A DNA stretch of 64,000 nt from a virus, in IMG/VR virus record IMGVR_UViG_3300005613_000008, positions 62,001 to 126,000 of that record, one strand, 5' to 3'. Under the pieces are notes generated by a model. That model searched no databases. It was not told the origin of the DNA and saw only the letters and a program-made list of their open reading frames with translations. Positions 37,134 to 41,984 of the stretch are shown in pieces (position 1 is the stretch's first letter; the number at the start of each line of letters is the position of its first letter). The position numbers and the translations under genes are program-made.

Positions 37134-37721
37134 ATGCCATTCTGGTCAACAAACTTCGGACAGGACGCAACCCTAAAAGATCCAAAGCGTAAACATCGAT
37201 TTACCGTAGAATTCCAAGGAATTAACGCTGCTCAGGGAGGTGCTCTCCTTTGGTACGCAAAGACTGCCACTAAGCCCGGCTTCACCGTTAATGCTGCCGA
37301 GCACAAGTATCTCGGTCACACCTTTTACTACCCTGGTAACGTTACTTGGGAACAGGTTACTGTAACACTTGTTGACCCAGTTGATCCAGATGTTACTGCT
37401 ACTTTCGCTGACATTGTTACTGCTGGTGGCTACACCCCCCCCACTGATGCCAACTCACTTGGCACCGTTTCCAAGGCAAAGGCTACTGGCGCTCTTGGTA
37501 ATGTCCTAATCACTCAACTCGACGGTGATGGTAATCCAGTTGAGACTTGGACCTTGTGGAACGCTTTTGTAACAAGCATGAAACAGGACGATCTTGACTA
37601 CACTTCTGACGAGTTGGCTACCACCACAATTGAGCTTCGCTTCGACTGGGCAAGAGTAGAAACACTCAACAATTCTTCTGCTGTCAATGGTTCCGGCGGA
37701 AACTCATTCTTCAACGTTTGA
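37134..37721 (+). CDS. Tail tube protein (gp19-like)
   Basis: 195 residues starting after ACAGGAGAACC. Features of the tube fold include KRKHRFTVEF, LLWYAKTATKPGF, HKYLGHTFYYPGNVTWEQVTVTLVDPVDPD and a C-terminal LDYTSDELATTTIELRFDWA, all typical of T4-type tubes that form the inner channel of the tail. It lies immediately after the sheath gene and before the assembly chaperone. Confidence 0.9.
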   Translation: MPFWSTNFGQDATLKDPKRKHRFTVEFQGINAAQGGALLWYAKTATKPGFTVNAAEHKYLGHTFYYPGNVTWEQVTVTLVDPVDPDVTATFADIVTAGGYTPPTDANSLGTVSKAKATGALGNVLITQLDGDGNPVETWTLWNAFVTSMKQDDLDYTSDELATTTIELRFDWARVETLNNSSAVNGSGGNSFFNV

Positions 37722-37750: not shown

Positions 37751-38575
37751 TTGTCAAGAAATCAAGATCGCCTAGGTGGCGTTCAACAGCATGACACGAG
37801 CCCCCCACCCCAACAGGGTGGCGGGGGTTTCTCGTTTGTAGTTCCAACCGAATTTGTGGATCTACCTTCACAGGGTCGCTTTTATGCACAGGGTCACCCT
37901 CTTCACGGAAAAGACTCTATCGAAATCAAGCAGATGACTGCCAAGGAAGAAGACATTCTCACTTCGAGAACTCTTTTGAAGAAAGGTATTGCTCTAGATA
38001 GATTGATCGAAAGTTTAATCGTTGATAAATCTATCAACCCAACAAGCCTTCTTATTGGTGATCGTAACGCTATCATCGTTGCTGCAAGAGTTTCTGGCTA
38101 TGGCAATAGCTATGAGACAAGCGTTCAGTGCCCCGCCTGCGAGACAAAACAGACTTATGGATTTGATTTAAACTCTGCTCATATTCAGCATGGCGAAATG
38201 AAAGAAAATCTTGGAGTAACTGACAATGGTGATGGAACAATCACTTGCATTCTTCCAAAAACACAGATTACCGTTGTTGCAAGATTGCTAACAGGTCGTG
38301 AAGAGAAACTGCTATTAAGCCTAAACGAAAACACAGGACTTATTTCTACTCAGTTACAGTCCATTATTGTGAGTGCTAATGGAGATTCTTCTCAGCAAGC
38401 AATCAACTATGTTTCCAACAACCTACCTTCATTTGATTCTCGTCATCTAAGAATGATTCTCAAAATGGCTACCCCCAATGTTGATTTAACACAGCAGTTC
38501 TCTTGTACCAATTGCGGTCATACACAAGAGATGGAGGTGCCGCTTACGGCGGACTTTTTTTGGCCTGACCGATGA
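37751..38575 (+). CDS. T4 gp26-like protein, tail assembly chaperone, zero-frame product
   Basis: 274 residues from a TTG start after GAGGTG. The N-terminal part is Gly/Pro-rich; the core begins VVPTEFVDLPSQGRFYAQGHPL, followed by IKQMTAKEEDILTSR, as in the T4 baseplate/gp26 family. Two CxxC pairs, CPACETK (~134) and CTNCGH (~255), suggest a zinc-binding module. It sits between tube and tape measure, the standard place for tail assembly chaperones, which coat the tape measure while the tube grows. The frame ends in ADFFWPDR just after a run of seven T, and coding clearly continues in another frame. Confidence 0.75.
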   Translation: MSRNQDRLGGVQQHDTSPPPQQGGGGFSFVVPTEFVDLPSQGRFYAQGHPLHGKDSIEIKQMTAKEEDILTSRTLLKKGIALDRLIESLIVDKSINPTSLLIGDRNAIIVAARVSGYGNSYETSVQCPACETKQTYGFDLNSAHIQHGEMKENLGVTDNGDGTITCILPKTQITVVARLLTGREEKLLLSLNENTGLISTQLQSIIVSANGDSSQQAINYVSNNLPSFDSRHLRMILKMATPNVDLTQQFSCTNCGHTQEMEVPLTADFFWPDR

Positions 38576-38813
38576 ATACAATGAAGGGATTTATGAAGAA
38601 ATTTTCTTCCTCAAGTATTCAGGTGGCTGGAGTTTTTCAGAAGCTTACAGCCTGCCCATAGGGCTCAGAAAATGGTTTGTCCAACGAACCATCAAGCAGC
38701 TTGAGATGGAATCAGAAGCAATCAAGAAAGCCTCGAAAGGGCAATCTAATTCCAGTTATCAGGAACTGACCCCTTCTAATCAACCACCAATTCCAAAAGA
38801 ATATGCTAGATGA
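38562..38813 (+). CDS. Tail assembly chaperone extension (recoded +1/-2 frame)
   Basis: An ~84-residue coding stretch with no ATG, GTG or TTG upstream of its conserved part; this frame opens only at 38490. It encodes DEYNEGIYEEIFFLKYSGGW, then a SLPIGLRKWFVQRTI region and a helix LEMESEAIKKASKG, similar in character to gp51-like / second chaperone domains. It overlaps the end of the preceding gene at TTTTTTT (38555-38561). A +1 or -2 slip there would fuse it to the chaperone; a -1 slip hits a stop at once. I infer programmed frameshifting, as known for tail chaperones of many phages. Confidence 0.7.
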   Translation, partial: GLTDEYNEGIYEEIFFLKYSGGWSFSEAYSLPIGLRKWFVQRTIKQLEMESEAIKKASKGQSNSSYQELTPSNQPPIPKEYAR

Positions 38814-38880: not shown

Positions 38881-40977
38881 ATGGCAGATGATCCAAAACA
38901 GTTAAAAAATGCCTTTGAAGCTTTAGCGAAACAGATCGAGGCTTTAACTGAAATTAACAAAAAGTTGCTTCAAGACACTATTGTCGCTAATGAAAAAGTT
39001 GCTGACTCACAAGCAAAGACAAACAAAAATCTGCAAGAAGAGATAGCTAAAAGGCGACTAATTTTAGACTCACAAATAGCTCAAACCGCAGAAACCAAAA
39101 AGCAAGCAGAAGAAGCGGGAAGATATGCCGAAAAACAAAGACTTCTTGACGAGTATTATTCTCAAACAATTGAAAATTTACAAGAAGAAATCCGTCTAAG
39201 AAAAGAAAATGGTGAAGGCGTTGATGAACTTGTAAAAAAACTAGAAGAAGCCAAAAAGGGTCAAAAGAATCTAAACGATGAGACCAAAAAAGGCACCAAG
39301 AGTATAGAGAAGTATGGAGGCATTTTAAAAAATGTTTTAAAAGGAGATTTAAAAAGTGTCCTGACTGGAGTTGGAAAAGAATTTGCGGGTAAAAGCAAAT
39401 TTATTCAAAAACAAATGGGCAACCTTGAGAGCAAATTAGTTCAAGTCGGAAAATCAGGCGGCAAAGCACTGGCTGCCCTAGGTGCCTCTGCGGTGGCATT
39501 GGCTGCTGCGTTGTTTATTACAAAAGAAATTATTAAACTCGCTATCTCCGTTGAAAACTTAAGCAGAGAGATCCAAAAAGCCACCGGGTTGTCTAAAGAC
39601 TTTACAAATCAGATAATGGCAAATGCCGATGCTGTCCGTGCTTTCGATCCACAAATGAAGATGCTTGGAGCAACCACTCAAGAGCTTGCGAAATCATTCA
39701 CCGACTTCTCTATGCTAAATAAAGAAGTAGCAGCAGATGTCGCTGTTACACTAACGGCTCTAACTGCTCTTGGGATAGGAGCAGGGGACTTGGCGAAGGG
39801 AATGCAGCTATCAACCAAGGCTCTTGGGCAAAATGCCGACCAAGCAACACAAACACAACTTGAATTAAATGCCTTAGCAAGAGATATAGGTGTAGCCCCG
39901 GCAGAAATGGCTGCGAACTTTGCTGCTGCTGGTCCTCAACTCGCTAAACTAGGAAGAGATGGCGTAAAAGCTTTCAAGGACTTAGCTATTACTTCTAAGA
40001 TTACAGGTATTGAAGTCAGCAGGCTTCTCGCGATTACCGAAAAGTTTGATACATTTGAGGGCGCAGCAGAACAAGCAGGTAAGTTGAATGCTGCATTGGG
40101 CGGCAACTTCGTCAATGCTATGGAATTGATGACTGCAACAGATCCTGCCGAACGTTTTGAGATGATTAGAGACTCTGTTCTTGATGCTGGACTTGCTTTT
40201 GACGATATGTCTTACTATCAACGTAAGTTTTATGCTGATGCTATGGGGCTAAACGATGTTTCCGAACTTGCTCTTGTTCTTTCGGGCAACATGGAATCTC
40301 TAAACGGAGAGATAGGCAAAACTTCTGCTGATTATGAAAATGCAGCGAAAATGGCAAGAGACTTCCAGTCCGTACAAGATCAAATTAAAAATGCAATTCA
40401 CGCGCTAATTCCAGTTGTTCAGCCGCTGGCTGAATTAATTGGTGACCTTGCATCCGAAGTTTCAACTTTTATTACCGAAAATAAGGAGCTATTACGCTCA
40501 ATAGGTTATGGGCTATTAGTAGCACTTGCAGCAGTGGGGGTGGCTTTAGCCGTCGTTGCTGGTAAGTTCATTTTGATTGCTGGGGTTGTTATGGGTGTCG
40601 TTACAGCAATTGGGGCACTTATAAATATAATGTTGCATAAAAGAAATTCTCCAACATTTTTTGAAAGCTTATTAGAAACAGCAGATAGGTTTGACAAACT
40701 GTCTGGTTCTACAAAGAAGTTTGCTATAGAAACAGAAAACACTTCAACCTCTGTTGATGAAATGAGAAAATCTATGAGCCAAGTATCTACCAATAGAGCA
40801 GGTGCTCCAATTTATGCCACAAACAATGCAGTCAGCAATGCGGTCAGCAGTGCCATCAATAGTACAATAAACAACTACGGACAGCAAAATAGCCAGAACA
40901 TTGTAATCGAACTTGATGGTAAGAAGGTTGGTGAAGGTGTTATGGGTAAGTTCGCAAGAAATGCAGCTATGGTATGA
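38881..40977 (+). CDS. Tape measure protein
   Basis: 698 residues. An N-terminal coiled coil (~1-140) is followed by a first hydrophobic helix pair (ALGASAVALAAALFITKEI, ~197-215), a long amphipathic helical region, and a second hydrophobic block (LLVALAAVGVALAVVAG... ~545-585). This arrangement of coils plus membrane-active helices is typical of tape measures that set tail length and are ejected with the DNA. It follows the tail assembly chaperone as expected. Length suggests a moderately long tail. Confidence 0.82.
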   Translation: MADDPKQLKNAFEALAKQIEALTEINKKLLQDTIVANEKVADSQAKTNKNLQEEIAKRRLILDSQIAQTAETKKQAEEAGRYAEKQRLLDEYYSQTIENLQEEIRLRKENGEGVDELVKKLEEAKKGQKNLNDETKKGTKSIEKYGGILKNVLKGDLKSVLTGVGKEFAGKSKFIQKQMGNLESKLVQVGKSGGKALAALGASAVALAAALFITKEIIKLAISVENLSREIQKATGLSKDFTNQIMANADAVRAFDPQMKMLGATTQELAKSFTDFSMLNKEVAADVAVTLTALTALGIGAGDLAKGMQLSTKALGQNADQATQTQLELNALARDIGVAPAEMAANFAAAGPQLAKLGRDGVKAFKDLAITSKITGIEVSRLLAITEKFDTFEGAAEQAGKLNAALGGNFVNAMELMTATDPAERFEMIRDSVLDAGLAFDDMSYYQRKFYADAMGLNDVSELALVLSGNMESLNGEIGKTSADYENAAKMARDFQSVQDQIKNAIHALIPVVQPLAELIGDLASEVSTFITENKELLRSIGYGLLVALAAVGVALAVVAGKFILIAGVVMGVVTAIGALINIMLHKRNSPTFFESLLETADRFDKLSGSTKKFAIETENTSTSVDEMRKSMSQVSTNRAGAPIYATNNAVSNAVSSAINSTINNYGQQNSQNIVIELDGKKVGEGVMGKFARNAAMV

Positions 40978-40988
40978 GAGGATAAAAA

Positions 40989-41984
40989 ATGGCACAAAAA
41001 TTATTTGATGTAAGAAAGTATCAAGACGAAAGACCAACACTTGTGGATGGCTCAGATGCTCTTGCTAATCAAAGAGAACTAGTAATTTCTTTCTACCATG
41101 TACCTTCAGAAAGAAGTGTATTCTTTAAAGCTTTCATAACTGCTTTTTCCGAGACTTATAACTCCAACTTTACTCCAACTGAAGTCTTTGGTAGAACAGA
41201 TCCAATCTATCAGTATAAGAATACAACAAGAAAAATTTCTCTCACTTTTGAAGTTCCAGCAGCAAGTGAAGGCGAAGCATACGAAAATCTCGGCAGAGTC
41301 TCGGCACTTGAACAAATGTTGTATGCTTCATACACCGGAGATCCCAATAACGCTTTAAACATAACACAGGCTCCCCTTATTCGCTTAAAGGTAATGAACT
41401 TGTTACAGACTATTGGAAGAGAGCCCACCACAACAGGAGGGCAAGATTTATATTCTTTTTATGAATCGACTTCAAATTCTGATAGGGGGCTTCTTGGAAT
41501 CATAGATAACCTCTCGGTCAATCATAATATTGTTAGCGATGATGGTGTTTTTCATAAAGGAACAAATACGATTCTTCCAAAGAATATAGAACTAAGTATT
41601 GGATTTTCGCCTATTCATGAAACTACGATAGGGTGGGATGGCGATAAGAAACAAATCAACAATCTCTTTCCTTATAATGTTATCACGGAAGAAACAGAAT
41701 TAGGAAAAGACTCAGATGTATTACCAGCGTACAAAGAACAGGCTGAAAAAGAAAAAGCCGAAGAGCAAGCACGAAGAGTAAGACAACAACAAATTGATAG
41801 CGCAAAAGCACGCTATGGCGGCGTCTTAGGAAACATGAGAATGAACGCAGATGTTCGTAGAGCAGGGAGAGGTAATGATAAGGCTTTGAATAGATTGGGC
41901 GCAGGATCGGTGGCTGGTATTGAAGGTGCCGATGAGGCACTTAAAGAAGGCTTCGAAGGATACATTGAGGATTTCATCGAATGA
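40989..41984 (+). CDS. Baseplate tube-initiator protein (gp48/gp54-like)
   Basis: 331 residues. The N-terminal half has VFFKAFITAFSETYNSNFTPTEVFGRTDPIYQYKNTTRKISLTFEVPA, a block shared by T4-type baseplate tube-initiation proteins that cap the central hub and nucleate tube growth. The C-terminal third is a charged coiled coil (KEQAEKEKAEEQARRVRQQQ) followed by a Gly/Ala-rich tail. It lies directly after the tape measure and overlaps the LysM-like wedge gene by four bases. Confidence 0.75.
   Translation: MAQKLFDVRKYQDERPTLVDGSDALANQRELVISFYHVPSERSVFFKAFITAFSETYNSNFTPTEVFGRTDPIYQYKNTTRKISLTFEVPAASEGEAYENLGRVSALEQMLYASYTGDPNNALNITQAPLIRLKVMNLLQTIGREPTTTGGQDLYSFYESTSNSDRGLLGIIDNLSVNHNIVSDDGVFHKGTNTILPKNIELSIGFSPIHETTIGWDGDKKQINNLFPYNVITEETELGKDSDVLPAYKEQAEKEKAEEQARRVRQQQIDSAKARYGGVLGNMRMNADVRRAGRGNDKALNRLGAGSVAGIEGADEALKEGFEGYIEDFIE

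Follow-up and report, generated by a model that had tools for sequence, protein, structure and literature searches.

Tail assembly chaperones of the lambda G/GT type are encoded by a gene lying between those for the tail tube and the tape measure protein, in which two frames overlap and a frameshift late in the first one adds a C-terminal domain, the shift in lambda being -1 (PMC5009743). This G-T frameshifting is widely conserved, with T4 as the exception, and the chaperone of the haloarchaeal myovirus HSTV-2 likely uses a +1 shift (Atkins et al. 2016, PMC5009743). The tail assembly chaperones of T4 were identified by Vladimirov, Gautam & Davidson 2022, as cited in reference 76 of PMC12846349, and a 2025 paper describes -1 frameshift chaperones at a poly-T motif and, in a passage citing Vladimirov et al., treats frameshift signals in T4-like chaperone genes as known (PMC12846349). 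Judged by these citing passages, the T4 assignment is prior knowledge, and -1 shifting in T4-like chaperones probably is too. Our literature search, in which Vladimirov et al. 2022 was known by citation only, found no report of +1 frameshifting in the family of T4 gp26 (Pfam PF12322). In bacteria, CUU_U forms the context of the prfB +1 slip, and UUU is likewise +1-prone (PMC10885494).

The locus described here lies in a 64,000-nucleotide stretch of phage DNA (the window) and resembles lambda G/GT in its place between tube and tape measure, its overlapping frames and a C-terminal domain that a frameshift late in the first frame would add. It differs in shifting +1 on YUU_UGG and in a first-frame protein that belongs to the T4 gp26 family. 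HSTV-2 shares the +1 direction, but it is an archaeal virus and is likened here by description only. Comparative sequence evidence indicates that in the window phage and hundreds of its relatives one gene very probably makes two chaperone proteins, and we consider it highly likely that the short and the long form arise by a +1 slip at UUU_UGG.

Gene order and frame geometry

The features of the locus are as follows.

37134..37721, plus strand: tail tube gene (PF06841, phrog_4542)
37751..38575, plus strand: gp26-like gene, the short form of the tail assembly chaperone, with a TTG start and TGA at 38573-38575
38532..38538, plus strand: UGGAGGU, a Shine-Dalgarno-like candidate stimulator, near-invariant in the window clade
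38540..38552, plus strand: short stem CCGC (38540-43) / GCGG (38549-52) just before the T run, a candidate stimulator
38555..38561, plus strand: T7 slip site, with 0-frame TTT at 38555-57, TTT at 38558-60 (proposed P site) and TGG at 38561-63 (A site)
38562..38813, plus strand: +1-frame C-terminal domain, 83 codons, GLTDEY...EYAR, stop TGA at 38811-38813
38881..40977, plus strand: tape measure gene (phrog_28, E 5.3e-07)

The gp26-like protein matches PF12322 (T4_baseplate; E 1.3e-18, 67.9 bits against a curated Pfam cut-off of 24.5) and phrog_150, and its gene is the only PF12322 match in the 127-kb record, a virus contig that may be incomplete. The order of tube, chaperone and tape measure genes recurs in the related loci L001, L002 (Flavobacterium phage immuto), L383 (Bacillus phage SP-15) and L387. 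This position, together with an overlapping second frame that lacks its own start and a slip site and frame conserved in 238/238 related loci, leads us to assign the gene, by position, homology and architecture, to the G/GT type by analogy. The chaperone reading had been proposed in a first-pass annotation of this DNA, and the place between tube and tape measure fits it; such a chaperone would be expected to bind the tape measure and tube proteins and to be absent from the virion. Just past the tape measure gene, at 40989-41984, a gene for a 331-aa protein matched nothing in PHROGs and nothing in Pfam above cut-off.

Positions 38549-38575 read GCG GAC TTT TTT TGG CCT GAC CGA TGA. The first-pass description of the frames was borne out: the gp26-like frame, read from the TTG at 37751 to 38575, ends ADFFWPDR right after the T run; frame analysis places the second frame, open from 38490 to 38813, in the +1 (equally -2) relation to it; that frame contains no ATG, GTG or TTG between the in-frame stop upstream and the end of the 22nd codon beyond the T run; and a -1 shift would give L-A-stop. 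Conservation in the second domain sets in with FGL, right where the shift is proposed. This domain, conserved in the 238 loci, is predicted to form three helices (mean pLDDT 79), and a structure search with the model gave no significant match in BFVD or PDB. Membership of Pfam DUF6760 (PF20546) was considered on the basis of a weak similarity (19.7 bits, E 9e-4) and rejected, the score lying below the curated cut-off of 27 and the other domains tested showing less similarity or none.

Conservation and selection at the proposed slip site

Relatives were gathered from IMG/VR, using two distant profiles in addition to three queries taken from the window, and two phage records were added. Removal of duplicates left 238 distinct loci (119 near and 119 distant), from which identical sequences are gone and which are nevertheless not independent of one another. 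In all 238 the second frame stands at +1 to the first, far beyond chance, so that the frame relation proposed for checking in relatives was kept without exception; 12/12 loci on MAG contigs are also +1. The T run, the other part of that check, is mostly kept and is interrupted as TTTCTTT in 31 loci and as TTCTTTT in four. The proposed P site holds TTT in 207 loci and CTT in 31, the A site holds TGG in 234 and, once each, TAT, TAC, TTC or TTT, and the slip-site sequence is TTTTTTTGGC in 199 loci and TTTCTTTGGC in 30. Replacement of the A-site TGG by TAT, TAC, TTC or TTT with the +1 relation kept was observed in L273, L351, L295, L324 and L409; these rare loci show that the +1 relation does not depend strictly on an A-site Trp.

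Phage tail modules with the same +1 site were also seen in L417 (CP070664.1, a WOR-3 MAG chromosome) and in L418 and L419 (NHDW01000006.1), the latter two at opposite ends of one contig with identical sequence at the slip site. One of these three modules sits on a 2.8-Mb chromosome record, and they may represent prophage or mis-assembled phage. A plasmid search and a first scan of genome contigs for related loci gave no match.

Both frames carry the mark of selection. Among 86 non-redundant near relatives, synonymous codon identity averages 0.45 and reaches 0.84-1.0 at the GCG GAC TTT TTT codons, with GAG at -8 and CCG at -6 showing almost no change. Mean pS falls from 0.79 upstream to 0.36 in the last ten codons of the first frame, a collapse of synonymous variation at the slip site, and the median dN/dS of 0.10 in the second frame indicates that it is under strong purifying selection.

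The nature of the proposed shift

In the mechanism that we favor, most ribosomes would read on to the TGA at 38573, so that the short form predominates, and in a minority the tRNA-Phe in the P site at UUU_UGG would slip one base forward onto UUU; in the CUU relatives tRNA-Leu would make the equivalent forward slip. Slipped ribosomes would continue in the +1 frame to 38813 and yield the long form with its helical C-terminal domain. Were the two forms to act as lambda G/GT do, the tape measure protein would receive a coat of the short part, and the extra domain would bring in tail tube subunits. The 31 CUU_UGG relatives resemble prfB (CUU_UGA_C), where a P-site CUU slips to UUU, but the prfB A site is a stop codon whereas that of the window family is a sense Trp codon, and the family lacks a Shine-Dalgarno-like sequence at the prfB spacing. 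The window family may work by the same P-site slip despite its sense A site. Points against the +1 reading are that UGG is a sense codon for which slow decoding is not evident and that stimulators are not common to all clades. No tRNA genes were found in the window.

The candidate stimulators belong to the window clade. UGGAGGU is invariant in 85 window-clade sequences, codon third positions included, except for one base in one sequence, and has no fixed place in distant clades. The four pairs of the upstream stem form in 77-83 of these 85 sequences, in which the stem showed no covariation; its folding z-score is weak (-1.3), and an Rfam search gave no match. The stem was thus rejected as a proven stimulator, conserved though it is, and any role of UGGAGGU and the stem is a guess, because neither is common to all clades and the stem lacks covariation.

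Backward slippage would also reach the second frame. A -2 shift, known for phage Mu, would yield the same final frame with one residue more, and its re-pairing is possible on UUUUUUU and, with G-U pairing, on UUU_CUU. Mu-type slippage calls for re-pairing in all variants, and this breaks down in the four relatives that read UUC_UUU_UGG (L135, L138, L186 and L212), where a -2 slip of tRNA-Phe lands on UCU, precluding good pairing, and a +1 slip lands on UUU. Since re-pairing in this clade works for +1 only, and since both CUU_U and UUU_U count as classic contexts for +1 slips, we regard -2 slippage as highly improbable. The first-pass annotation had proposed a programmed frameshift, +1 or -2, that fuses the C-terminal domain to the gp26-like chaperone; the comparative evidence supports the fusion and selects +1.

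The T run itself raises the possibility that RNA polymerase, aided by the upstream stem, drops one U in part of the transcripts. In the window clade the T7 run does carry a GC-rich stem two bases upstream, and stem-loop-mediated slippage is known for a Roseiflexus IS630 element (PMC5009743). The run is interrupted in the TTTCTTTGG and TTCTTTTGG relatives, 31 loci and four, with the frame relation unchanged, which argues against polymerase slippage, and the stem is not conserved outside the window clade; this route therefore seems a very poor candidate, and we take the slip to be ribosomal.

The second frame might instead be translated as a separate protein, through reinitiation near the gp26 stop or from a non-AUG codon such as the CTG two codons past the slip. 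That CTG is present in 218/238 loci, an in-frame ATG lies seven codons past the slip in 63/238, UGGAGGU resembles a ribosome-binding site, the very distant phage L382 has an ATG start, and in cyanophage records the second frame is entered as a gp51 gene of its own. The CTG was nonetheless rejected as a start codon because it is not conserved: the Leu after the first new-frame codon is written CTA, TTA or CTC in 20 loci, and this interchange among Leu codons makes a CTG start less credible and suggests that the Leu is translated in the new frame. The conserved FGL lies upstream of the ATG, and in 72/238 loci, the window included, the stretch between the preceding in-frame stop and the end of the 22nd codon past the site is free of ATG, GTG and TTG, which rules out ordinary initiation as a route common to all. 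Separate initiation also leaves the conserved U run and the exact frame unexplained, and we judge it unlikely, although the 63 ATG-bearing loci may make a truncated separate product. A normal start codon for the second frame in a relative had been named at first pass as grounds for abandoning the frameshift; one was found only in L382, with the ATG seven codons on in some nearer relatives.

The PF12322 family in other phages

The proposed +1 slip of the window family has counterparts of either direction in distant phages, where the PF12322 frame closes on FF-like codons and a small homologous domain lies in another frame. That frame is +1 in SP-15, LIS04, vB_SagM-GXN1, RM378 and LR756508. It is -1, at an in-phase U_UUU_UUY, in RAS14, XacN1, PA5oct and Atu_ph07, and seven further jumbo phages are -1 with U_UUU_UUC, bringing the jumbo total to 11/11. 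S-PM2 and HTVC008M are -1, as are 80/80 S-PM2-like loci in IMG/VR, all with an in-phase U_UUU_UUC; in 26 of them there is no start codon as far as ten codons beyond the site. The gp26-family genes of cyanophages and jumbo phages thus share with the window a homologous second domain in a shifted frame at FF codons, but shift -1 at the classic tandem heptamer U_UUU_UUY rather than +1.

In public records the second frame is mostly annotated as a separate small gene or left unannotated. In L433, L516 and 570 phage records, the -1 frame of cyanophages appears as a short gene of its own, named gp51 or 'baseplate hub assembly catalyst'. These separate-gene annotations are doubtful because the gp26 frame ends in the in-phase heptamer and the 26 IMG/VR relatives have no start, and they are probably halves of a fusion. 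L382 (LR756511.1, a 595-kb phage), alone among the relatives seen, encodes the C-terminal domain in a gene of its own with an ATG start, at about 2760-2930, directly after the gp26 stop (TAATG). Salmonella phage Vi01 (L435) has one PF12322 gene and a -1-frame domain-like ORF, but a canonical slippery heptamer was not seen, and this phage may rely on a different slip site or on an internal ATG.

In the records with a Pfam match, PF12322 genes number one in every phage of the frameshift type and two in 7/7 of the Straboviridae type. T4 gp26 and gp51 both belong to PF12322. The T4 contrast drawn at first pass, that gp26 and gp51 are separate genes there, stands and can be sharpened: on sequence grounds, T4-type phages carry paralogues, a short gp26 and a long gp51 that probably carries the extra domain in frame, where the window record has a single PF12322 gene and a frameshift. 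T4 gp51 is essential, has an unknown function and is absent from the particle (PMC3004832), and being essential yet absent from the particle fits a chaperone.

The link between the window domain and gp51 runs through intermediates. The gp51 C-terminus matches the frameshift-encoded domain of the intermediates at a profile score of 25-27 (column shuffles at most 16.3, best non-domain window 17.8), and the intermediates match the window family's domain at a score of 55 and a profile-comparison probability of 97%. The S-PM2 domain scores 38 bits against the gp51 profile and finds Aes508 gp51 by tblastn at 6e-5. Direct comparison of the window family's domain with gp51 gave no significant match, and these results suggest homology to the gp51 extension via intermediates only.

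Shifting by +1 on YUU_UGG, and a shift direction that changes from one orthologue to another, look new. We hold it somewhat better than an even chance that the locus represents a distinct +1 class, with a YUU_UGG slip, a sense Trp codon in the A site and help from UGGAGGU and a stem in the window clade, within an orthologous gene that has switched among +1, -1 and duplication while keeping both products. The comparisons bring jumbo phages, T4-like cyanophages, T4 and a large group of marine phages together in one orthologous family, in which the same two products would come from +1 shifting, -1 shifting or duplication. These three routes to two products would amount to a natural experiment on what must be conserved, and the +1 site offers hundreds of natural variants for testing sense-codon slippage.
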